Assembly (NCBI GenBank): GCA_947073765.1
Contig: CAMTMZ010000006.1
Location: forward strand, 1 to 64,000
Reading direction: 5' to 3'
Length of the DNA: 64,000 bases
Origin: an uncultured Bacillota bacterium
Lineage (GTDB): Bacteria; Bacillota; Clostridia; Oscillospirales; Oscillospiraceae
Shown here: positions 376-64,000 of the stretch, in pieces
How the letters are laid out: every line of letters starts with the position of its first letter
Position numbering within the stretch: the stretch's first letter is position 1
The notes under the pieces: model-generated
Told to the model about the DNA's origin: nothing
The model's database searches: none
The model's input: the letters and a program-made list of their open reading frames with translations, nothing else
Program-made: the position numbers and the translations under genes

Positions 376-630
376 CTAGCGGCAAAATTCCGACTTCCGG
401 AACAGAGAACGCAGCAGGACGATCCAGCCCCAGGAGATGGACAGGGTAGGCAGGCAAGCCAACAGAATGGCCTTGATGGGGTGAATGTCCGTGAAGCAGA
501 TGGGCCCGAAGAACATGACGAACAAAACTACCATCATTACCAGCAGGGTGATCTGTTCCCGACGGTTGTTGGGAGGTGTCAGAAAAATCTTTTTCAGGTC
601 GATCTCCACTCGAATGACTTCCTTTTTCAT
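376..630 (-). CDS. small membrane protein, third gene of the ergothionase operon
   Basis: 84 residues with a charged N-terminus (about 1-25), two hydrophobic segments (about 27-48 and 51-74) and a basic C-terminal tail, so probably a two-pass inner-membrane protein. I do not recognise the family. Its ATG follows the stop codon of the upstream lyase gene by a single base (TGA-T-ATG), so it is almost certainly translationally coupled and belongs to the BCCT-lyase transcript. A role as an accessory subunit of the transporter is possible but is only inferred from position. Confidence 0.7.
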   Translation of the reverse strand: MKKEVIRVEIDLKKIFLTPPNNRREQITLLVMMVVLFVMFFGPICFTDIHPIKAILLACLPTLSISWGWIVLLRSLFRKSEFCR

Positions 631-631
631 A

Positions 632-2164
632 TCAGCTCAGCGCTCCTGTCACGTTTTCAGCCACCCGGATTAATGCCCCGGAGTGAATAAAGTCTTTCAG
701 GTACTCGATGTAAGGGTGGAGCAGCATATCCTTTTCCATCACCGGTACATGCTTGCTGATTTCAGCAAGCACCGCCGTGGTGGCAGGGGCACGGCTTACG
801 TCCGGGTCTACAAACTGCTGCACCTGATAGACACTGAGCAGCTCGATGGCCAGTATGTATTCCAGCTTCTCCGCCATGGGGCCGGATTTTTTACAGGCGT
901 TGTAGCCCATGGCCACATAGTCCTCCTGGTTTCCACAGGTGGGGGTGTTGTCGATGGTGGAGGGGGTGGCCAGCATCCGCATCTCGTTCAACAGTCCAGC
1001 CTGGACGTACTGGGGGATCATCAGTCCAGAGTTGAGTCCCGGCTCTTTGATGCAGAAGAAGGGGTAGCCGGACAGAGATCCATCTACAATGCGGTTATTC
1101 CGCCGTTCGGAGATTTTGGCCAGTCCAACGGCGGCGATGCAAGCGCTGTCCATCTCCATACCCACATAGGCCGAATCGGCGTTGCAGGCGGAGATGACAT
1201 CTTCGTTGCCTTTTTCCGGCCAGATGATGGGGTTGTCGCAGCAGGAATTCATCTCGATCTCAATGGTCTTTTTTGCGTCCTCCAGGGTTTTCCGGGCCGC
1301 GCCGTGGAGCTGGGGAATGCACCGCAGGGACAGGGCGTCCTGCACCCGGCTGCCCCGGTATTTCTCCATAATGCCCGAGCCCTTGAGCATGCGCCGCACA
1401 TTCTCTGAGGCGTTAAGCTGGTCGGGGTGGGGGCGGACGGCCATCACCCGGGGGTCGAAGGCATTGATAACGCCCTTCATGGCCTCCAAGGACATGGCGC
1501 CCACGATATCGGCAGACTTGGCGGCGTTGAGCATGTCATACAGAGCCAGGGCCGCCATGGCGGTGGCTGAGGTGGTGCCCGACACCAGGGCCAGTCCCTC
1601 TTTAGAGCTGAGGGTCATAGGCTCCAGTCCGGCCCGCTTCAGGGCCTCGGCCCCCTCCAGCAGCTCGCCGTTGTAATAGGCCTTCCCCTTGCCCAGAAGC
1701 ACCAGGGCCATGTGGGCCTCGGGGGAGAGGTAGCCCACGCTGCCGCTGCCGGGGGCGCAGGGGGTCAGGCCAGCGTTGAGGAAATCCCGATACCGCTCCA
1801 GCACTACCATCCGCACTCCGCTGTACCCCTGACCGATGTTTTGCAGCACCATGAGCATGATACCCCGTACCCGCTCGATGCTCAGGGGCTCGCCTACCGA
1901 AACTGAATGGGACAGGATGATATTTTCCTGGAGCTGGGCGGTTTCCTTCTTGTCGATGGCCTTGGTGCACAGAGCACCGAAGCCGGTGGTGACGCCGTAC
2001 ATCACCCGCTCCTCCTCCACCCATTTCTCGACCAAAGCCCGGGAACGATTCACCCGGGCGGTATACTCCGGGGAAAATTCTACCTTCCGTCCAAACCGGG
2101 CTACGGATACGAAGTCGTCCAGCGTAATGGGCTCCCCTAAAATCAGCGTTTTCGTCTCTTCCAT
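632..2164 (-). CDS. ergothionase-like, MIO-less member of the HutH/aromatic lyase family
   Basis: 510 residues, full length for the histidine ammonia-lyase fold. Conserved features include YGVTTGFG (Tyr56), LSHSVSVGEP (His86), SLRC (Arg281), GLNSG and NQEDYVAMG (Glu414). The Ala-Ser-Gly triad that cyclises to the MIO cofactor is exactly missing. Where HAL has GSVG-ASG-DLAPLAHMA, this protein has GSVG followed directly by YLSPEAHMA (residues 141-153). The Tyr of the canonical QDxYSLRC motif is Leu280, and NFHG is replaced by NADS. Ergothionases of this fold are known to lack MIO because trimethylamine is already a good leaving group. Together with the adjacent betaine-type transporter this points to ergothioneine cleavage to thiourocanate and trimethylamine. 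Automatic annotation would call it HutH. The exact substrate is an inference; another betaine of an aromatic amino acid is possible. Confidence 0.75.
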   Translation of the reverse strand: MEETKTLILGEPITLDDFVSVARFGRKVEFSPEYTARVNRSRALVEKWVEEERVMYGVTTGFGALCTKAIDKKETAQLQENIILSHSVSVGEPLSIERVRGIMLMVLQNIGQGYSGVRMVVLERYRDFLNAGLTPCAPGSGSVGYLSPEAHMALVLLGKGKAYYNGELLEGAEALKRAGLEPMTLSSKEGLALVSGTTSATAMAALALYDMLNAAKSADIVGAMSLEAMKGVINAFDPRVMAVRPHPDQLNASENVRRMLKGSGIMEKYRGSRVQDALSLRCIPQLHGAARKTLEDAKKTIEIEMNSCCDNPIIWPEKGNEDVISACNADSAYVGMEMDSACIAAVGLAKISERRNNRIVDGSLSGYPFFCIKEPGLNSGLMIPQYVQAGLLNEMRMLATPSTIDNTPTCGNQEDYVAMGYNACKKSGPMAEKLEYILAIELLSVYQVQQFVDPDVSRAPATTAVLAEISKHVPVMEKDMLLHPYIEYLKDFIHSGALIRVAENVTGALS

Positions 2165-2183
2165 ATCGCAATGTCTCCCCTCA

Positions 2184-2257
2184 GTAGGGCCGCCGCCCTC
2201 GGCGGTCCGTATTTGATTTTACTATGTACGGGGGCTGGCGAGGGCGTCGGCCCCTAC
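2184..2257. repeat. dispersed palindromic repeat, copy 1
   Basis: It begins GTAGGGCCG and ends CGGCCCCTAC, with two internal GC-rich hairpin arms around an AT-rich centre. A similarly built element with the same GTAGGG/CCCTAC ends lies at 49173-49244. It fills the gap between the transporter and lyase genes and would form a stable structure in their shared mRNA. Confidence 0.5.
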
Positions 2258-2264
2258 AGAAAAA

Positions 2265-3842
2265 TTACACTTCGACCTGATCCACGCTGTCTACAATGTC
2301 TTTCTTGGTCTCGGGATCGAAGAAGAACACCTTGAAAGCTGCGGCTACTTGGAATATAAATACAATAAGCACCACAAAGCCGCCGCAGGCCGCCAGGTAC
2401 TTTACGCCGTCTACGCCCTGGGCGCCGCCGCCAAAGGCTACCATGACGCAGGCGATCACGCCGATGGACACACCCCAAACGATTTTTTGCCAGATGGCAG
2501 GCTCCTCGTCGTGACGGGCACCGCTGGTACACAGAGCGGCGATGGTGGTGGACATAGTGTCCGCTGTGGTGGAGAAGGCCGCGATGAGGGCCAGAATGAT
2601 AACAGGGATGATAATCATGCCCAGAGGGACGTTCTTCAGGAACTCCCACAGGCCAGTGGTAGCGCCGCCGTTCTGAATGGCGGTGATGATGTCGGCGCTG
2701 CCGCTCTTCTGCCACTCCAGGGCGGTGGAGCCCCACACGGAGAACCACACAAAGCCGAAAGAGGCGGGGAGAATCCAGTTGACGATAAGGAACTGCCGCA
2801 CGGTGCGGCCGTAGGCGATGATGGCGAAGAAGATGCCCATCAGGGGGGCATAGGCGATCCAGATGGCCCAGTCATACATGGTCCACCAAGTGACCAGGGC
2901 GGAGCCGCCCACGGTATAGGGGTCGAAGCCCCACATCCAGAAGCGGTCAAGCCAGTATCCCAGGCCCACGTTGGCCATATTCAAGATGTAGATGGTAGGG
3001 CCGATGATGAACAGCAGGATGAGCAGCACGTAGAAGATCTTGGAGGTCAGGCCGGCCAGCCATTTAATACCTTTGTCAATGCCGGTGACCGAGGCGATGG
3101 TAAAGGTGACGGTGATGATGGCGGTGAGGGCCATCCACACGATGGGACCCTGCTCCACGCCGTAGGCGGAGTAGAGGCCGGAGCCGATAAGAGCAAGCCC
3201 GGCGCCCAGGGAGGAGGCCAGACCCAAGGCGATGGCCAGCACGGACAGCACATCTACCAGCACCACCCAGATGCCATGGGTGACCTTCTCACCGAAGATG
3301 GGGGTAAGGGAGGCGGCCACAGACAGCTGCTTTTTGCGGTTGAAGTACATATAAGCGATGAGAACCCCGGAAAGGGCATACATGGCGTAGGGAATAAAGG
3401 TCCAGTTATAGAAGCAGCGGCCCATGGCAAACAGCTCCGCCTCCTGGGTCAGGGGCTGGATGCCATAGCCCTCCAGCTCACCGTAGATGTTGCCGTAGTA
3501 GATAAGTACCTCATTGACGCCATAGGTGATCAGACCGGTGGCAATGCCGCCGGTGAGGGTCATGGCGAACCAGGAGCCAAAGGAATGTTTGGCCTTGGCC
3601 TCCGGGCCGCCAAAGCGGATCTTGCCCACCCTGGTGAACATCAGCAGGCAGGCAAGCAGCAGGGTAACCATGGCTACGATCTGATACAGCCAGCCAAAGG
3701 TGCTCAGCGACCAGTCAAACATGGTGTAGGTAACGTTGGTCAGCCAGGCGTTGTTGACGATGCCCAGCAGGGCCGCGCCTCCAATGACGATGAAGCAGGG
3801 GATAAACACATCCCAGCGGATTGGCTTGCTCTCGTGTTTCAT
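2265..3842 (-). CDS. BCCT-family betaine/carnitine/choline-type transporter
   Basis: 525 residues from an ATG with a GGAGAG ribosome site. About twelve hydrophobic segments and the diagnostic BCCT region around WTMYDWAIWIAYAPLMG and YGRTVRQFL. BCCT proteins carry substrates with a quaternary ammonium group, and the ergothioneine side chain is a trimethylammonium betaine. The gene is first in an operon with the MIO-less lyase and is preceded by a -24/-12 promoter at 3909-3924. An upstream in-frame extension exists but lacks a ribosome site and would run through the promoter. Uptake of ergothioneine is inferred; carnitine or glycine betaine cannot be excluded from sequence. Confidence 0.88.
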   Translation of the reverse strand: MKHESKPIRWDVFIPCFIVIGGAALLGIVNNAWLTNVTYTMFDWSLSTFGWLYQIVAMVTLLLACLLMFTRVGKIRFGGPEAKAKHSFGSWFAMTLTGGIATGLITYGVNEVLIYYGNIYGELEGYGIQPLTQEAELFAMGRCFYNWTFIPYAMYALSGVLIAYMYFNRKKQLSVAASLTPIFGEKVTHGIWVVLVDVLSVLAIALGLASSLGAGLALIGSGLYSAYGVEQGPIVWMALTAIITVTFTIASVTGIDKGIKWLAGLTSKIFYVLLILLFIIGPTIYILNMANVGLGYWLDRFWMWGFDPYTVGGSALVTWWTMYDWAIWIAYAPLMGIFFAIIAYGRTVRQFLIVNWILPASFGFVWFSVWGSTALEWQKSGSADIITAIQNGGATTGLWEFLKNVPLGMIIIPVIILALIAAFSTTADTMSTTIAALCTSGARHDEEPAIWQKIVWGVSIGVIACVMVAFGGGAQGVDGVKYLAACGGFVVLIVFIFQVAAAFKVFFFDPETKKDIVDSVDQVEV

Positions 3843-55937: not shown

Positions 55938-56129
55938 ATGTTCCACTATGAAAAAAAACTTCAATTCCCAGTAAAAATTACCACCCCCAACCCTAAACTG
56001 GCCGCATTCATTATCAGTCAGTACGGTGGGCCCGATGGTGAGCTGGGCGCCTCTATGCGCTACCTGTCTCAGCGGTACTCCATGCCTTACGCTGAGGCTA
56101 AGGGACTGCTCACCGACATTGGTACTGAG
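55938..56129 (+). pseudogene. cotJC: cotJC, N-terminal part only (interrupted by the serine-recombinase element)
   Basis: Begins directly at the end of the fusion gene with MFHYEKKLQFPVKI and follows CotJC (manganese-catalase-like coat protein of about 190 residues) through LLTDIGTE. After this codon, where the family continues EEFAHLE with metal ligands, the sequence switches to unrelated GSFCDWC and soon stops at 56180. The missing two thirds are not in the window. It is functional only if the element is removed. Confidence 0.85.
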
Positions 56130-57709
56130 GGTTCATTCTGTGACTGGTGCAGATTTTTCAGCATGAAAGTCCACTTTTGAGACAAAAAATTGAGATAAAC
56201 CTCCACTTTTCGGTTTTTATATACCACCATCTGGTCCAAAACGTTTTTGTAGAACGCCTCACTGTCTGTCCTGCCATTTACAATGTCGGTTACTTGATGG
56301 CCTATGGTCTCCCTCAGTTGTTCTGTCTCGTAGGTGATGCTCCCTCTAGATCGCACCGTCTCAAGCCGCTTTTGGAGCATTTCCAACTCTCTGTCATATC
56401 GCTGATTGACCAGCTGCATCTCCTCTTTTGTAATCTGCTTGGAAAAGAACGCATCCAGCACATCCGTCTTTTTCTGGTTCAGTTGGCCAATCTCATATTC
56501 CAATTCCTCAATCCGGTCCACAGTCCCATCCTCACTCACCCGAATGGCCTCGAACGCAAGGGATGTGACATTTTGGATAATCCCCTCCCGATCCATTCGC
56601 AGCGTTGCCAAGGACTGCCTCAGGATATCCATAGCCAACTCCTCCCGCAGGAGTTTTCCTATATCGCAGCCCACCTCATTGCCTTGAGCGTCAACATGTT
56701 TTCGTCCTTCAGATGTGGCAGTGTAGCAGCTCCAACGCCTGTAAAGGGAACCATCTTTGCGGTGTTTTTTCCGTGATACAAAGCTGGCTCCACACTCTCC
56801 ACATTTTATTTTACCGCTGAATACGTAACGGTTGGAATGCCCCTTCCCTAGCTTACTGCTGCGGTCCCGTTTTTTCAGCTCCTGCTGTACGGTATCCCAC
56901 AGCTTCCGATCAATGATGGGCTCATGGTGATTTCGAATGATGACCAGTTCCTCCTCGCCATGGTTGTACTTTTTAGTATGGCTTAAGTAATCGGGGGTAA
57001 ATGTTTTTTTCTGAACCAAATCCCCCACATACTTTTCGTTCTTTAAAATTTTTACGATGTGGGAATTAGACCACTTCACGTTACCGCTGTAGGTCCGGTA
57101 TCCCGCTTCGCGAAGCTCCCGGGCGATGACAGTAGTCCCTTTTTTTTCTACGCCATATTTGTAGAAGATCAGCCTAACAACCTCCGCCCCCTCCGGATTT
57201 AATGTCAGGTATCCTCCCTTTACATCATATCCCAGGAGCGATCTTCCGAATACAACCCCCTGCTCCATCCGCCGGGTCTGTCCCCATTTTACCCGGGCGG
57301 AGGTTTTGCGGCTCTCCTCCTGGGCCAGAGAGCCCATAATGGATAGGCGCAGCTCAGAATCTGGCTCCAGCGTGCTGATACCGTCGTTTACAAAGACTAC
57401 CCCTATGTTCAGCACTCTCAGTTCTCGGGTATAGGTGATGGTGTCTAAAATATTCCGGGAGAATCGGCTGACCTCCTTGGTGAGGATGATTTGAAATTTT
57501 CCCTGGTGGGCGTCAGCGATCATCTGGTTGAAGGCTGCCCGCTTTTTTGTGGAGGTACCGGTTATCCCTTCATCAGCGTAGACTTGGTACAGTTCCCAGT
57601 TCGGCTGGCGGTCGATATACTCCTTAAAATAACGCTGCTGACTCTCAAAGGAGTTGGCCTGATCTTTGTGGTCTGTAGATACGCGGCAGTAGGCAGCTGC
57701 TTTTATCAT
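56087..57709 (-). CDS. large serine recombinase
   Basis: 540 residues. Resolvase catalytic domain (AYCRVSTD with Ser11; TKEVSRFSRN; LSIMGSLAQEESR), a Recombinase domain (about 150-270), zinc ribbon CGECGASFVSRKK and a coiled-coil C-terminus. The last about 15 residues (from NEP onward) are encoded by antisense of cotJC, so the C-terminus is chimeric with the target. It should catalyse the element's integration and excision, as SpoIVCA does for skin. Confidence 0.95.
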   Translation of the reverse strand: MIKAAAYCRVSTDHKDQANSFESQQRYFKEYIDRQPNWELYQVYADEGITGTSTKKRAAFNQMIADAHQGKFQIILTKEVSRFSRNILDTITYTRELRVLNIGVVFVNDGISTLEPDSELRLSIMGSLAQEESRKTSARVKWGQTRRMEQGVVFGRSLLGYDVKGGYLTLNPEGAEVVRLIFYKYGVEKKGTTVIARELREAGYRTYSGNVKWSNSHIVKILKNEKYVGDLVQKKTFTPDYLSHTKKYNHGEEELVIIRNHHEPIIDRKLWDTVQQELKKRDRSSKLGKGHSNRYVFSGKIKCGECGASFVSRKKHRKDGSLYRRWSCYTATSEGRKHVDAQGNEVGCDIGKLLREELAMDILRQSLATLRMDREGIIQNVTSLAFEAIRVSEDGTVDRIEELEYEIGQLNQKKTDVLDAFFSKQITKEEMQLVNQRYDRELEMLQKRLETVRSRGSITYETEQLRETIGHQVTDIVNGRTDSEAFYKNVLDQMVVYKNRKVEVYLNFLSQKWTFMLKNLHQSQNEPSVPMSVSSPLASA

Positions 57710-58319: not shown

Positions 58320-59141
58320 TCAGTTCTCTATTAACCAATCCAGGTTTAATGCTAAAGTGGACATACATATATTCGGCTTTATCAACTCCCCATGGAAGTC
58401 ACTGCCACCAGTGAGATACAGTCCATACTTCTCAGCTAGATGAAAGTAAAAAGCTTGTTGTTCCGGAGTATATTGGGGATAGAAACATTCTATTGCGTCC
58501 AGTCCGTAACTGGCCAATTCCTGTATGATGCTCTCTAATGTTTCATTATCCACTCTGATCTGATTAGGATGGGCCAAAGATACCCATCCTCCGGCCTTCT
58601 TAATGGCCTCAACACAAACTCGTGCTGCCGGCTTAGGCCGCTCAACTTGCTGATGAAATTCCTCTGTATCCAGATAGCGGCCAAAAGCCTCTCTACTGTC
58701 AGACACATAGCCACGACGTATCAACGCTTGCGCAAAGTGGGGCCGTCCTACAATATTTCCGCCGGCCAATTCCTCCACTTCGGCGAGGGACACCTCTACA
58801 CCCTGTTCCTTCAAATAGGAGATAATACGTGGTGCACGTTGGTCTCGTCCCGCTTTCAGGTCTCCACATAGAACAGCCAAAGTGTAATCATTTGGGTCAA
58901 AGCCATAACCCAAAATATGAAAAGTATGGTACTCCTTAGCGGCGAATTCTATGCCCCGAATAACCCGAAGCTTCAAACGCTCTCCTGCCAAGACTGCTTC
59001 ATCCAGACCATCCACCGTATCGTGGTCTGTAATGGCCAGCACTTCCAGACCCTGGTCTTTCGCCAAATGTACCAGCTCTGTTGGAGTGTACTGGCCGTCG
59101 GAGGCAGTCGAGTGAGTGTGCAAATCAGCCAGTACAGTCAT
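58320..59141 (-). CDS. PHP-domain phosphoesterase, probable 3',5'-nucleoside bisphosphate phosphatase
   Basis: 273 residues. PHP metal motifs LHTHSTASDG (His8, His10, Asp15), ITDHDTV (Asp39, His40), GIEF and GGSDFHGE. The layout is that of the YciV/CV1693-type enzymes, which remove the 3'-phosphate from nucleoside 3',5'-bisphosphates. In this operon the obvious substrate is cytidine 3',5'-bisphosphate, left when a 3'-phospho-CDP-amidate donor gives up its phosphoramidate. Start overlaps the previous gene's stop (ATGA). Confidence 0.85.
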   Translation of the reverse strand: MTVLADLHTHSTASDGQYTPTELVHLAKDQGLEVLAITDHDTVDGLDEAVLAGERLKLRVIRGIEFAAKEYHTFHILGYGFDPNDYTLAVLCGDLKAGRDQRAPRIISYLKEQGVEVSLAEVEELAGGNIVGRPHFAQALIRRGYVSDSREAFGRYLDTEEFHQQVERPKPAARVCVEAIKKAGGWVSLAHPNQIRVDNETLESIIQELASYGLDAIECFYPQYTPEQQAFYFHLAEKYGLYLTGGSDFHGELIKPNICMSTLALNLDWLIEN

Positions 59142-59875
59142 AGCACATCTCCAAAATACTCCTCATAAACTGCAATATCATGTTCCGAGTCGCACTCTAG
59201 CCAGAGTTCGTCCGTAGAAATGGTTTGGATGTCATATCCCCTTTGAACAAGCTCATGGAGAAGAGTTGTCATATCCAGCTGGTTCAGAGGTTTAGCCAGT
59301 GTTTGGCGAATGGTCTCTTCTACCCAGCTCCAACTCTCTGGTGTAAACCTTAATAGTCCCATAAACTGACCCTGAATATCCTTGGGATCCTGGGGTTCTT
59401 TCCCAATCTCCTGCAAGAGGCCGTTCTCGTTTACTCGAAAGGTCTCCAAATCCTTTAGGGGATTGTTCATCCGCTTTTCCCACAGAGACCAATATCCGCT
59501 GTAGGAGGTGATAGCCAGGGGCTCAGAGCAGTCTATCAGCACCTGGACCACCTTGGAAGAAAAAACAATGTCTGAGTAGCAAACAATACAGGGCTCGCGT
59601 TTAAGCCATTCCTCCGCCATGGTCAGAGAGTAGAACATGTTCGTCTTTTCCCAGTTCTCATTGTGAAAGTATGTTACGCCAGGAATATCAAACATATTGC
59701 TGCAATACCCGGTTACAATAGCGATATCCTCTCTGGAAATTTTTGCCTGATCCAGGGTATCAAGGCAGCGATCCAACAATGTTTTACCTTGGAGAGTACA
59801 CATACATTTGGGCCGATCTTTGGTCCGCATCCCCAATCGGCTGCCTCGTCCGGCCGCTAAGATAATCACTTTCAC
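59138..59875 (-). CDS. CTP:phosphoglutamine cytidylyltransferase-like (Cj1416 type)
   Basis: 245 residues. Nucleotidyltransferase start IILAAGRGSRLG with Lys in RPKCM, and CYSDIVF for the metal Asp. The late GQFMGLLRFTPESW is typical of the choline-phosphate cytidylyltransferase-like group that contains Cj1416. There it joins N5-phospho-L-glutamine to CMP. Its neighbours are the Gln-kinase-like and amidohydrolase-like genes, in the same set as in C. jejuni. It overlaps its neighbours by 4 bp at both ends. Confidence 0.82.
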   Translation of the reverse strand: MKVIILAAGRGSRLGMRTKDRPKCMCTLQGKTLLDRCLDTLDQAKISREDIAIVTGYCSNMFDIPGVTYFHNENWEKTNMFYSLTMAEEWLKREPCIVCYSDIVFSSKVVQVLIDCSEPLAITSYSGYWSLWEKRMNNPLKDLETFRVNENGLLQEIGKEPQDPKDIQGQFMGLLRFTPESWSWVEETIRQTLAKPLNQLDMTTLLHELVQRGYDIQTISTDELWLECDSEHDIAVYEEYFGDVL

Positions 59876-60468
59876 AACGAAAACACTTCCTTTATTAACT
59901 GAATATCTCCTGTTCTAAGTGGATAATACCGTTCCGGATGCCACATAATTCCTCGAATCCAGGAAAAATTCTCATGTCTCACCGCCTCCAATACCCCATC
60001 AGCACTCCATGCCGTAGGAATCAGCGGAAAGTCACAGGCAGTTGTTCCCCAGCTGTGGAAGCTGTTCACCCTGTCTCCATTGGACAGAGGATGTTCCACC
60101 CGAACATGCTCTTCAATCCTCTGAAGGGGAGTTCCAAAGTAATCCAGTATCATTTGCATTCCTCGGCAGACACCCAGCACAGGGACATGTTTTTCTACCG
60201 CGGTTCGGATCAAAAACCGCTCCACCTCATCTCGTTCTGGGGCATCACCACCGTAAACCGCCAGATCATTACCACCTGTCAGTAAAAAACCGTTGGGCCT
60301 TTGAGTCTTCAACAATTCTTTCACCGTAGCCGAGTGATTTGGCAGAAGGAGCGGCAGAAAGCCGCATATTTCCGCTAAAATGGTCCATTCCTGGGATAGT
60401 GCGTCCCGTCGTTCCCCAATATCTTTTATGGATTCCACACGCTGGGTAAGAGCTATTATTTTCCTCAT
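59872..60468 (-). CDS. gamma-glutamyl-CDP-amidate hydrolase-like class I glutaminase (Cj1417 type)
   Basis: 198 residues. Peptidase C26/GATase fold: nucleophile Cys in LGVCRGMQM, catalytic His-x-Glu in MWHPERY, and FLLTGGNDL. In the phosphoramidate pathway it removes glutamate from gamma-glutamyl-CDP-amidate to give cytidine diphosphoramidate. ATG overlaps the kinase stop (ATGA). A generic gamma-glutamyl hydrolase is the alternative without the context. Confidence 0.82.
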   Translation of the reverse strand: MRKIIALTQRVESIKDIGERRDALSQEWTILAEICGFLPLLLPNHSATVKELLKTQRPNGFLLTGGNDLAVYGGDAPERDEVERFLIRTAVEKHVPVLGVCRGMQMILDYFGTPLQRIEEHVRVEHPLSNGDRVNSFHSWGTTACDFPLIPTAWSADGVLEAVRHENFSWIRGIMWHPERYYPLRTGDIQLIKEVFSL

Positions 60469-62774
60469 AATACTACCACAGTCCGGTTCTTGCAATCCAG
60501 AGCAATGCGCTGGGCAGAGGCATAGCGGGCAAACTGCTTCTCTCCAACCCCAATTACCGCTGGAATTCCGAACTCCGCCGCTCGAATGGCCATATGAGAA
60601 TTGGCTCCGCCATATGCGGTAATAAAACCGGCAATATTGTGAGAAAATATCCAATCATAGCCAGGGTCGGCTCCACGGATCAGGACCAGTTTACCTGTCA
60701 ACTCCTCCTCTGCGGGAAGCAGAACTGTCCGTGCTGAACAGCAGCTCTGGGTAATGAAGTTCGGACTTCCGTTTGGCATGAAAAAACTGTACACCTGCTC
60801 CTCCCTCCACAGGAGAGGAGGCAGAGTAATACCGGCCGCCGCTTGTTCCATCTGTCTTCCTTCCAGGATGGAGCTCCTCATAACTGCTTCCAAATCTCCC
60901 GCGTTGGAATATGCTTCCATGATCCTTTGAATAGTTACATGGGATATGTCCTCCCGGCTCAGGCCGCAGCTTTCTCCTAAGTCGGCCAACAGCTCCAGCA
61001 CATCGGACAATGTGTGTGTAAAGATAAATTTAGCGTACTCACGGCCTTCGATTGCGTGCTGGATAAAATGAAAGAGAGATAAAACATCGGTTTTTAACTG
61101 ATGTTTCTCCAGCATATGCTGGAGGTTTTCATACTGCGTCAGGGACAATTTAAATGGGTACGTTTCCTCTGCCCTGTCTTCTCTGACATGACTGAAGTCA
61201 AAATACCTCTCTTTGTCCTGATCGTACCTGGGGGAGCAGATATCATAGGTTCCAGGCCGCAGATGTCCGTACCGCTTCAAAAACGCCTCAGGAGAGAGGG
61301 TGGACAAATCCTGGGAGATATTCTTGCCCACGGTAGACAGGCTATTCATATATGCTGCCCGCTCCTCCTCCGTCAATACTCCAGCTGATACCATAGAACG
61401 CAGGAACTCCACAGCAATAAATCCAGCCCGAGCCAAACCCGCAAAAGGCAAAGTGCCGTACCGTTTGCAGTATTCCAGCAGCCAGTAGATCTTATCCCCT
61501 GTTCCCAAACCGCTGTTTATAATCTCCTGACGTTTCTGACCAAGAATCTCTATCTTTGCAGCATCTTTTTTCCACAGCCCATCTTCACAGATGATTGAGT
61601 TGGTCAAATCGCTCAGACATTCTGTCAGACAGGCACACTCATCCTCTGTGAAGCAATTGTTCAACAGTATTTTTACTCGCTCTGGCAGGTCAAATGTATA
61701 ACAGGTAAAGGCAATTTCAAACTCTACTTTATCATGAAACTCTGGGTGTTTCCGGAGTCGATTCAGGTAATACTCTGCCAGCTTCTCCGCGAGAGGCTCG
61801 GGAAGAGTTTTGGGCATAAAGGAGTTGAAGCTTACTCGAGTGTCTATGTAGGGTAGCCCCAGAAAATTGACCATCAATGGAAAAGAGCGCAGATTTCGGT
61901 ATCCATAGTTGTCCCGCTGATAGGCCCAAACACCGTTGGTAATTATCTCTTTGTATAGGCTCAGTGCCAGCGCCCGGGGCCGAACACCGATCATTTCCGC
62001 CGGATTCCAGTCCGGCATAATCCCATAGATTGTCTGCCGTCCACACAAGTCTGGGTGAGGCATGATCGAGGCGCACAGCTTTGCCCTGATCTGCTCCAGA
62101 CATTGCCTCTGCTCCTCCAAGTCAGCCAAAGGCTTCGTCAGTACTAATGGCCGAACCTGAAGAAGATACAGCTTTTCCTCTGAAACAGCAAACTCAATGT
62201 CCAGCGCAGGTTGTTGGAACAATTCTTCCAATTCCTGACACAGGTCAATCACACGGTCCAGCGGGGCAGGAGGCGGCTTAAGTGAGCCCTTGAAGTGATA
62301 GAATGTCTCAAGTTCCTGTCCAGTTCCATCGGTAACAGAGCTGGTAGAGCCGGTAGAAGCGTCATAGTTCAGGATAAAATAGTTTCCTCCAGTGTTTGGA
62401 TCCGCGGTGAAAGCCACACCGCATAACTCTACAGAGGTTAAGAAGGGCTGGACGAACACTTGGTTTTCCAGATCGGGGCCCATGGCCGCCACAACCTGTT
62501 CCACCGCATGAAGAATATCCTCCTCACTTTTCACATCCGGGATAGAAAGAAATTTTCCCGCATTTGAACACTCTGCCATATCCTCATTCTTCGCACTGCT
62601 GCGGACGATGAGCGTTTTTCCAAGTAGTCCGTTCCTGTGCAGCATGGAAAGTATTTGTCCAGGATCCTTTTCCACCTCACCGGTTGTCAGGCACACCTGT
62701 GGAAGCACCTCTGCCGCTTTAAGCTGACCGTATAGGGCTCGCAATGTGTCTGCTTTTGTTGTAAATTGCAACAT
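60465..62774 (-). CDS. L-glutamine kinase-like, PEP-synthase fold (Cj1418 type)
   Basis: 769 residues. N-terminal ATP-binding domain of PEP synthase (IVRSSAKNED, SNAGKF, CGVAFTADPNTGGNY), a long central part and a C-terminal phosphohistidine domain GGANSHMAIRAAEFGIPAV with catalytic His727. It is not a PEP synthase: the usual PEP/pyruvate C-terminal barrel is absent. Cj1418 of C. jejuni has this architecture and phosphorylates the amide nitrogen of L-glutamine. Starts 5 nt after the methyltransferase gene. Confidence 0.85.
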   Translation of the reverse strand: MLQFTTKADTLRALYGQLKAAEVLPQVCLTTGEVEKDPGQILSMLHRNGLLGKTLIVRSSAKNEDMAECSNAGKFLSIPDVKSEEDILHAVEQVVAAMGPDLENQVFVQPFLTSVELCGVAFTADPNTGGNYFILNYDASTGSTSSVTDGTGQELETFYHFKGSLKPPPAPLDRVIDLCQELEELFQQPALDIEFAVSEEKLYLLQVRPLVLTKPLADLEEQRQCLEQIRAKLCASIMPHPDLCGRQTIYGIMPDWNPAEMIGVRPRALALSLYKEIITNGVWAYQRDNYGYRNLRSFPLMVNFLGLPYIDTRVSFNSFMPKTLPEPLAEKLAEYYLNRLRKHPEFHDKVEFEIAFTCYTFDLPERVKILLNNCFTEDECACLTECLSDLTNSIICEDGLWKKDAAKIEILGQKRQEIINSGLGTGDKIYWLLEYCKRYGTLPFAGLARAGFIAVEFLRSMVSAGVLTEEERAAYMNSLSTVGKNISQDLSTLSPEAFLKRYGHLRPGTYDICSPRYDQDKERYFDFSHVREDRAEETYPFKLSLTQYENLQHMLEKHQLKTDVLSLFHFIQHAIEGREYAKFIFTHTLSDVLELLADLGESCGLSREDISHVTIQRIMEAYSNAGDLEAVMRSSILEGRQMEQAAAGITLPPLLWREEQVYSFFMPNGSPNFITQSCCSARTVLLPAEEELTGKLVLIRGADPGYDWIFSHNIAGFITAYGGANSHMAIRAAEFGIPAVIGVGEKQFARYASAQRIALDCKNRTVVVL

Positions 62775-62779
62775 ATTTG

Positions 62780-63532
62780 TCACCGCTTTTTTTGAGCCAT
62801 CCAAATTCTTGTTGTATAGGGTACTGTAATTGTTTCCTGATTGAGTTGTTCAACAACCTGCCGGATTTCGGCAATTATTTGTTCAAATACGTCGGGAGAT
62901 TGGCGATAAACTGTACCATGCGATTTCCAACCTTCAATGAAATCTTCTGCGTTTAAATGGTGTTCAATCCGCCCGGAAATGAATTTTACTGGCCCAAATA
63001 GCCCAGACTGATCAATTATATTGGTCTGATCTTCTCGGCGGGTTCCGTAGCTATAATCAGCGATGTGCCTTTTAATTACCGCTTCGATTGCCTGCTGAAC
63101 TGGGTTATCTAAGTTCCGATGATTCCACATACAGGCAAACCAGCCTCTTGGCTTTAGTATACGGCTAGTTTCTATTAAGGCCTGTTTCCTATCGCACACA
63201 TTGAAAGACGACCCAAATGTTACCAGATCATATTTGGAGGAATCCATCCCAGTGTCTTCACCCACACCCTCGAACCACTGAACATTCGAATATTTCTCTG
63301 TTCGTTTAACTCCGTTTGACCGCATGGCATCATTAGGCTCTACGGCCCACACGTTCAGCCCAAATTTAGCTAGCTCTAAAGTTAGATGGGCTGCTCCTGC
63401 ACCTACATCGCACACCTCATCTCCGGGCTTCACCCCAGCACAGACCAGCATTTCTAAGATTGCAGTTGACGCATACTCCGGACGGTGGAGATAGGCCTCT
63501 GCTAAGTTCGTATAATCCCATTCTGTTTTCAT
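62780..63532 (-). CDS. SAM-dependent methyltransferase
   Basis: 250 residues, class I Rossmann fold: VCDVGAGAAHLTLELAKFG as the SAM loop, VEPNDAM, and WFACMWNHRNLDN. Small-molecule type. Within this operon it is a candidate for O-methylation of the phosphoramidate (counterpart of Cj1419/Cj1420), but regiochemistry cannot be seen. It starts 4 nt after the kinase-like gene. Confidence 0.82.
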   Translation of the reverse strand: MKTEWDYTNLAEAYLHRPEYASTAILEMLVCAGVKPGDEVCDVGAGAAHLTLELAKFGLNVWAVEPNDAMRSNGVKRTEKYSNVQWFEGVGEDTGMDSSKYDLVTFGSSFNVCDRKQALIETSRILKPRGWFACMWNHRNLDNPVQQAIEAVIKRHIADYSYGTRREDQTNIIDQSGLFGPVKFISGRIEHHLNAEDFIEGWKSHGTVYRQSPDVFEQIIAEIRQVVEQLNQETITVPYTTRIWMAQKKR

Positions 63533-63536
63533 AGTT

Positions 63537-64000
63537 TTATTTCTCCTCACATGATTTTATAGATATCAATTTTATCTGTTCCTCTGGTGTTCTATCCCCG
63601 TCATTTTCCAGAATCAGGTCTGGATTTTTAGGTTCCTCTACCTGGACATGAATTCCCGCCACGTCAGCTTGTGCCTGACTGTACAGGCACTTTTGATCCC
63701 GGCGTCTGAGCGTTTCCAATGATACTTTAATATAGACCTCAAAATAATCCGGTATATTTGACCGGTTCCATTCCCGTACGCTGTCAAACATGGAGATTGT
63801 GCAGCAAATTACTGTAATTCCCTGCATGGCCAGCAGCGCGCACAGCCTGGCATTGCGCATTGCGCTTTTCCGGCGGTCTATTTCTGTAAATCCTAAGTCA
63901 TCTCCAAAGACCTGGCGCAGCTCATCTCCATCCAGGAGGACTACCGGCTTGCCATCTGCCTTTAACTTTTCATACCATAGTCGGCCAATGGTCGTTTTTC
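63537..64000 (-). CDS. APS-kinase-like, probable CDP-amidate kinase (Cj1415 type), partial
   Basis: The last about 154 residues; the N-terminus is outside the window. KTTIGRLWYEKL at the very edge is the end of the P-loop, followed by VVLLDGDELRQVFG and SVREWNR, as in adenylylsulfate kinases. No other sulfate-assimilation gene is nearby. Cj1415 is the same fold and phosphorylates the ribose 3'-OH of cytidine diphosphoramidate, the step that fits this operon. Confidence 0.8.
   Translation of the reverse strand, partial: KTTIGRLWYEKLKADGKPVVLLDGDELRQVFGDDLGFTEIDRRKSAMRNARLCALLAMQGITVICCTISMFDSVREWNRSNIPDYFEVYIKVSLETLRRRDQKCLYSQAQADVAGIHVQVEEPKNPDLILENDGDRTPEEQIKLISIKSCEEK

Follow-up and report, generated by a model that had tools for sequence, protein, structure and literature searches.

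A gene set of the phosphoramidate-donor type in a probable flagellin-modification island of an uncultured oscillospiracean bacterium

At one end of the window, as we call the whole 64,000-nucleotide stretch of DNA analysed here (C6:1-64000 of a 2.33 Mb assembly, 96% complete, from an uncultured member of the Oscillospiraceae; contig C6 extends to 82974), six closely spaced minus-strand genes include the enzyme types of the O-methyl phosphoramidate (MeOPN) pathway of Campylobacter jejuni. We consider it probable that they belong to a flagellin-modification island that makes a donor of phosphoramidate, a rare phosphorus-nitrogen (P-N) group, and decorates flagellin or its sugars. Gene order, protein families, conservation, gene fusions and adjacency to flagellin were observed, and from them we infer the chemistry and the acceptor. 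In the proposed pathway, the kinase would N-phosphorylate glutamine with ATP through His727, the cytidylyltransferase would join phosphoglutamine to cytidine triphosphate (CTP), the hydrolase would remove glutamate to leave cytidine diphosphate (CDP)-phosphoramidate, and an enzyme resembling adenylyl-sulfate (APS) kinase would place a 3′-phosphate on the latter. A 581-residue protein, with the predicted fold of enzymes that bind the 3′-phosphonucleotide donor 3′-phosphoadenosine 5′-phosphosulfate (PAPS), would then move the phosphoramidate to its acceptor. The methyltransferase may O-methylate the phosphoramidate or a sugar, a step at which we can only guess. Finally, the PHP enzyme would turn the by-product cytidine 3′,5′-bisphosphate into cytidine monophosphate, as phosphatases of adenosine 3′,5′-bisphosphate do in sulfation, while assembly of the flagellin glycan would fall to a family 2 glycosyltransferase (GT2) and three sugar-nucleotide genes.

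Donor-synthesis enzymes and their genetic linkage

A preliminary description of the window had presented the six genes as coupled, and had identified all but the PHP gene with the enzymes of the C. jejuni phosphoramidate pathway. Their coordinates, frames, starts and stops proved correct, the spacing from the PHP gene to the APS-kinase-like gene being −4, −4, −4, +5 and +4, and every domain named for them was matched (Table 1); the APS-kinase-like gene extends 40 bases beyond the window end. The kinase scored 950.5 bits against NF004508 (cut-off 501), a family to which we take Cj1418 to belong, and His727, singled out in that description, is retained without exception in the window protein and the 15 relatives aligned with it. 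Identification as a true phosphoenolpyruvate synthase, one of two unrelated enzymes of which the description had warned, was rejected since TIGR01418 gave only 50.7 bits (cut-off 739.75). For the cytidylyltransferase, the closest solved sequence was the CTP:phosphocholine cytidylyltransferase 1jyk (E 6.7e-8). The catalytic motifs of the donor proteins other than the kinase were judged by eye only.

The second enzyme of that warning, a true APS kinase, belongs to a rival explanation, in which it would act with a true sulfotransferase to produce a sulfated flagellin glycan, the remaining enzymes being separate. The APS-kinase-like protein, completed beyond the window, scored 175.6 bits against NF004041 (cut-off 127), which bears the name adenylyl-sulfate kinase, and the fold predicted for the candidate transferase would equally suit sulfation. 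However, the APS-kinase equivalog TIGR00455 was not reached (118.3 bits against a cut-off of 138.7), and neither ATP sulfurylase (PF01747) nor CysD (TIGR02039) had a match in the 96% complete window genome, whereas, of 14 control genomes, 5 passed the cut-off of the first model and 4 that of the second. Identification as a true APS kinase was rejected on these two grounds. As an APS-kinase-like domain is, moreover, fused to a glutamine-kinase-like enzyme in nine of the loci described below, we regard ordinary sulfation as very improbable.

Relatives of the kinase were found by alignment in at least 527 stretches of species genomes, so the locus is not the isolated oddity that it had first seemed. 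The best 80 of these were kept as loci; they were fetched by the kinase alone, and partner genes were counted within 6 kb of it. The hydrolase was present in 78/80 (in L020 as a weak hit on the opposite strand), the cytidylyltransferase likewise in 78/80 and the APS-kinase-like gene in 71/80, seven times on the opposite strand. With broad profiles, the methyltransferase was counted in 63 loci and the transferase in 34; the PHP gene was near the kinase in eight. Because the kinase lies far over the NF004508 cut-off and the hydrolase and the cytidylyltransferase each accompany it in 78 of the 80 loci, the grouping of the six genes is not a matter of chance. Genetic linkage of kinase, hydrolase, cytidylyltransferase and APS-kinase-like gene is strong, and assignment of the five enzymes other than PHP to the C. 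jejuni type is well supported by homology and linkage.

Three kinds of fusion were seen among the donor enzymes. In nine loci (L043, L055, L066, L067, L070, L073, L076, L078 and L084; six acidobacterial by record title), proteins of 955-1060 residues carry the APS-kinase-like domain ahead of the glutamine-kinase-like part, and in MT837632.1 the hydrolase is fused to the kinase. This record, the only one with the kinase in a phage collection, is titled 'Bacteriophage sp.'; the translations of its neighbouring genes look bacterial, and its 9.5 kb (L123) hold the kinase-hydrolase fusion at 619-3684 and no cytidylyltransferase match. Among plasmids, 20 records contained the kinase, 14 of them covering at least 80% of it and none from Campylobacter. 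The record titles of the kinase stretches name Oscillospiraceae, Lachnospiraceae, Paenibacillus, Bacillus, Pseudomonas, Azospirillum, Treponema, Acidobacteriaceae, Planctomycetaceae, Verrucomicrobia, Nitrospina and others. Within the window's order, the kinase family was over cut-off in 1/295 genomes and gave a match of E 0.001 or better in 69/295; within its family it was over cut-off in 3/400 genomes, own genome included, and in none of the nine congeners listed. The kinase is thus found in many phyla yet patchily, which is consistent with transfer.

Flagellin, the candidate transferase and the recycling enzyme

The preliminary description had framed the locus as one for a capsule or other surface glycan. 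In the window genome, flagellin, glycosyltransferase and sugar-nucleotide genes form one same-strand run, and because flagellin leads this run we dropped the capsule reading. Of the 80 loci, 13 have a Flagellin_N gene within the flank that was fetched, about 10 kb (L006, L008, L010, L012, L024, L031, L033, L039, L040, L044, L045, L052 and L058). Six of these flagellin-type genes, from Pseudomonas or a gammaproteobacterium, are flgL-like and adjoin the kinase (Pfam check in L040 only), and in L006, L008, L010 and L012 flagellin stands immediately ahead of the transferase gene. G656, a genome of the same family, has the order flagellin, GT2, a 487-residue protein, APS-kinase-like, methyltransferase, kinase, hydrolase, cytidylyltransferase and PHP. 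The order in Pseudomonas taiwanensis is flgK, flgL, kinase, hydrolase, cytidylyltransferase, APS-kinase-like, methyltransferase, DegT, acetyltransferase, a PF04464 protein, GT2 and fliC, flgL and fliC being named from domain and place. In the complete genome of the cultured Anaerotruncus colihominis DSM 17241, a plus-strand run leads from two flagellins (1127855) to PHP (1156671), unbroken in the open reading frames (ORFs) read when antisense shadow ORFs are ignored.

Flagellin_N was over cut-off, by 29.8 bits at the weakest, in 20/20 kinase-bearing genomes tested from among the 80, compared with 53/295 genomes of the order. Flagellin lay near in 7/20 loci against 0.59 expected by chance (P 5e-7), a soft value since the loci are related, genome sizes were rounded and only L005-L014 were unselected, the others having been picked and two of them (L033 and L052) chosen after flagellin had been seen; the unselected count is 13/80.

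Beyond position 64000, where the preliminary description had suggested looking for a phosphoramidate transferase and glycan genes, a candidate transferase and glycan genes are present on the same contig and strand. The 581-residue protein is predicted to have a sulfotransferase fold, and its gene shares 8 bases with the APS-kinase-like gene. PF13469 was matched at E 0.01 or better by 11/11 shorter relatives of this protein, hits that were partial or cut by a contig end (such as L043) being excluded. In the subfamily alignment, Arg381 and Gly237 are conserved in 45/45 sequences and Lys232 lies outside the conserved positions; we take a donor-loop lysine and a 3′-phosphate arginine to be the motifs of sulfotransferases. 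As for the PHP enzyme, it is best read as a likely member of the pathway that recycles the nucleotide by removing the 3′-phosphate after transfer. Its solved relatives include 2yb1 (112 bits), and a search of its own genome with this protein returned only the protein itself.

Several observations weigh against a flagellin-directed phosphoramidate pathway. Two of its enzymes stay under the cut-offs of their best curated families: the hydrolase reaches 109.8 bits against NF045546 (gamma-glutamyl-CDP-amidate hydrolase; cut-off 250), a score taken on the longer ORF from an upstream TTG, two relatives scoring 94.7 and 107.4 and a kinase-fused one 71.2; the PHP protein reaches 179.5 bits against NF041577 (3′,5′-nucleoside bisphosphate phosphatase; cut-off 400), with RNase RNM NF047791 second (175.9 bits, cut-off 375). 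The window transferase itself misses PF13469 (14.7 bits, cut-off 27), the lysine that we would expect in the donor loop is not conserved within its subfamily, and its profile is broad enough to include two Radical-SAM proteins of L005 as well. In 46/80 loci, in some because of contig ends, no transferase was recognised up to 6 kb from the kinase, and the 487-residue protein at the transferase position of G656 (L134:12508-13971) is, by eye, CDP-glycerol-transferase-like. Flagellin-type genes are absent from the fetched flank in 67/80 loci, again in some for contig ends, and flagellin was not found in L005, a close relative whose flanks extend 10 kb each way. The donor genes and the outer genes share one strand, and the run is broken by a 227-base gap between the transferase gene and the acetyltransferase and by a hairpin (by eye) between flagellin and GT2, so that they may at most be supposed to form a single transcript. 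Finally, flagellin and transferase lie too close together in L006, L008, L010 and L012 to accommodate a glycosyltransferase between them; in these, therefore, the acceptor could be the flagellin protein.

Part of this evidence would suit a rival in which the donor is the same but the phosphoramidate decorates a different surface polymer (capsule, teichoic acid or lipid glycan), adjacency to flagellin being incidental. The loci without a flagellin-type gene are as expected from it, as is the capsule acceptor of C. jejuni described in the accessible parts of PMC3907429 and PMC11800397. Flagellin nevertheless comes first in the window genome, in four close relatives, in G656 and in A. colihominis, the Pseudomonas genes sit between flgL and fliC, and all 20 genomes tested have Flagellin_N; we hold this rival to be unlikely. 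The loci without a recognised transferase would also fit a cluster that yields a small diffusible P-N metabolite or nucleotide and decorates no surface. Since the transferase gene overlaps the APS-kinase-like gene in the window genome and no exporter occurs among the proteins scanned in the run, such a product seems most improbable.

A further rival is a CDP-amino-acid pathway, as for the flagellin glycans of Clostridioides difficile type A and Pseudomonas aeruginosa b-type, in which a phospho-amino acid would be transferred. Those islands also hold a GT2, a predicted CDP-amino-acid-forming enzyme and a methyltransferase, as far as the accessible part of PMC11833859 describes them, and CDP-glycerol-transferase-like proteins occur in two islands of the phosphoramidate type (L040, by PF04464, and L134, by eye). 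The kinase, hydrolase and APS-kinase-like set would have no evident role in such a pathway, however, and PF04464 was matched by 0/8 upstream proteins scanned in the window genome, which leaves it quite improbable beside the flagellin-phosphoramidate reading. The two CDP-glycerol-transferase-like proteins (L040:17090-18163 and that of L134) lie in islands without a recognised sulfotransferase-like protein, and perhaps represent a second type of transferase.

Relation to known systems

In C. jejuni, Cj1415-Cj1418 convert glutamine, ATP and CTP to CDP-phosphoramidate 3′-phosphate, and deletions of Cj1421 and Cj1422 abolish MeOPN (PMC11800397, in the part accessible). The present genes have the same set of enzyme types, a likeness of type and family drawn without comparison to the Cj sequences, and the window protein of 581 residues is close in size to the MeOPN transferases of strain 81-176, tabulated in the accessible part of PMC13317227 with 592 and 603, apparently residues. 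Unlike the C. jejuni system, the window system stands at a flagellin locus and not a capsule locus, has an added PHP enzyme, a hydrolase below its equivalog cut-off and a transferase of predicted sulfotransferase fold, the fold of Cj1421 and Cj1422 lying outside this comparison. The methyltransferase that the preliminary description had equated with Cj1419/Cj1420 is indeed present; its role is less secure, as the accessible part of PMC11800397 leaves Cj1419/Cj1420 without an assigned function. The locus is best read as extending the MeOPN system in the form of a flagellin phosphoramidation island.

Like the Pseudomonas flgL-fliC island and that of C. difficile type A, the locus combines flagellin with GT2, sugar-nucleotide and phosphorus-transfer genes. 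It differs from flagellar glycosylation islands in its donor enzymes of phosphoramidate type, the two phosphorus-containing flagellin glycans in the accessible part of PMC11833859 carrying phospho-methylthreonines. With PAPS-dependent sulfation it would share a 3′-phosphorylated nucleotide donor, a sulfotransferase fold and recycling by a 3′-phosphatase; unlike in sulfation, the predicted donor is CDP-phosphoramidate, and the window genome lacks a match to ATP sulfurylase or CysD. The odd 3′-phosphate of the donor would thereby be explained as a requirement of a sulfotransferase-type enzyme, and the nucleotide phosphatase would gain a role.

A search of the accessible literature by title or abstract start, in which subscription journals are poorly covered, found, among the papers listed, no report of phosphoramidate in Firmicutes or on flagellin; among accessible papers this chemistry is reported only on Campylobacter, and the phrase 'jejuni-specific glutamine kinase' appears in the accessible part of PMC9561416. 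If the proposed reading is true, phosphoramidate chemistry spans many phyla and reaches flagella, a surface recognised by immunity and phages. More speculatively, and with considerable doubt, one might see in it a 'phosphoramidation' that parallels sulfation across many phyla, with 3′-phosphorylated CDP-phosphoramidate, sulfotransferase-fold transferases and a recycling 3′-phosphatase. The C. jejuni capsule would then be one use of it; in Clostridia it would be packaged with an RNA-guided TldR/csrA flagellin switch, so that a change of flagellin would alter its covalent chemistry too, and in operons without a glycosyltransferase the flagellin protein itself would be phosphoramidated.

Gene neighbourhood, flagellin switch and mobility

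Table 1. Genes of the locus on contig C6
Feature	Position	Strand	Domain or remark
PHP-family phosphoesterase	58320-59141	-	PHP domain; frame, start and stop checked
MobA/LicC-like nucleotidyltransferase, predicted CTP:phosphoglutamine cytidylyltransferase	59138-59875	-	NTP_transf_3, PF12804
Class-I amidotransferase-like hydrolase, predicted gamma-glutamyl-CDP-amidate hydrolase	59872-60468	-	Peptidase_C26
Phosphoenolpyruvate-synthase-like kinase, predicted L-glutamine kinase	60465-62774	-	PPDK_N + PEP-utilizers
S-adenosylmethionine (SAM) methyltransferase	62780-63532	-	PF08241
APS-kinase-like P-loop kinase, predicted CDP-phosphoramidate 3′-kinase	63537-64040	-	PF01583
581-residue sulfotransferase-fold protein (predicted), candidate phosphoramidate transferase	64033-65778	-	beyond window
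Acetyltransferase	66006-66605	-	beyond window
DegT aminotransferase	66638-67885	-	beyond window
Oxidoreductase	67860-68834	-	beyond window
GT2 glycosyltransferase	68822-71047	-	beyond window; counted from first start codon
Flagellin	71098-72867	-	beyond window
csrA-like ORF, short	~73030-73190	-	upstream of flagellin
TldR-like TnpB	73381-74598 (L003:18381-19598)	-	upstream of flagellin

Upstream of flagellin lies a TldR/csrA pair that would likely toggle flagellin on and off. When the TnpB-like protein was compared by eye with TnpB structures in a phmmer alignment, the first Asp and the Glu of RuvC were seen to be replaced and the last Asp kept, at what we presume to be the catalytic positions; in the TnpB-like protein of L008 the last Asp is lost too. 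Both proteins are accordingly predicted to be nuclease-dead and TldR-like. TnpB homologues adjoin flagellin in L008 (L008:3054-4358; no other of the 80 loci has one) and in L134 (L134:18286-19455). TldRs associated with csrA and standing beside flagellin have been published for Oscillibacter and Flavonifractor (PMC13418256, in the part accessible); as in those csrA-TldR-fliC loci, a nuclease-dead TnpB and a csrA-like ORF adjoin flagellin here. Unlike them, the window flagellin heads a modification operon, which the passages concerned do not discuss, and the word stem 'glycosyl' is absent from the text of that paper.

A second flagellin lies at the end of contig C1 (L121:7765-10589), accompanied by a Hin/resolvase-like gene; the interval separating the two holds, as judged by eye, a sigma-28-like promoter. 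About 130 bases ahead of the start codon look nearly identical in the two flagellins of the window genome, and an Rfam search of both leaders (L003 and L121) returned nothing at the gathering threshold.

The preliminary description had also placed the genes on a mobile element of a spore former. A spore-forming host is only suggested, by cotJC and, by eye, a cwlD-like gene. Mobility is favoured by several features. A serine recombinase lies 0.6 kb away from the start of the cluster, and 2.2 kb separate that start from the point where the spore-coat gene cotJC is split (window 55938-57709; L121:7240-7716); residues 1-65 of cotJC end at the large serine recombinase. The distribution of the cluster is patchy, and its guanine-plus-cytosine content (58320-64000) is 0.479 against 0.559 in window 1-55900, lower than in any of the 5.7 kb stretches sampled from the latter at intervals of 500. 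The claim of a single element is weakened in that the remaining cotJC is on another contig, C1. A compact cotJC element bearing the entire island is at most a possibility: contig C1 breaks in flagellin, and homologues of the exporter genes that follow on C6 lie at other places in congener genomes. cotJC itself looks like a repeated integration target: its pieces lie apart at other positions in the same genus (e.g. 13 kb in G659, 27 kb in G702 and 15 kb in G693), and it is undivided, with 204-212 residues, in G424, G697 and G699.

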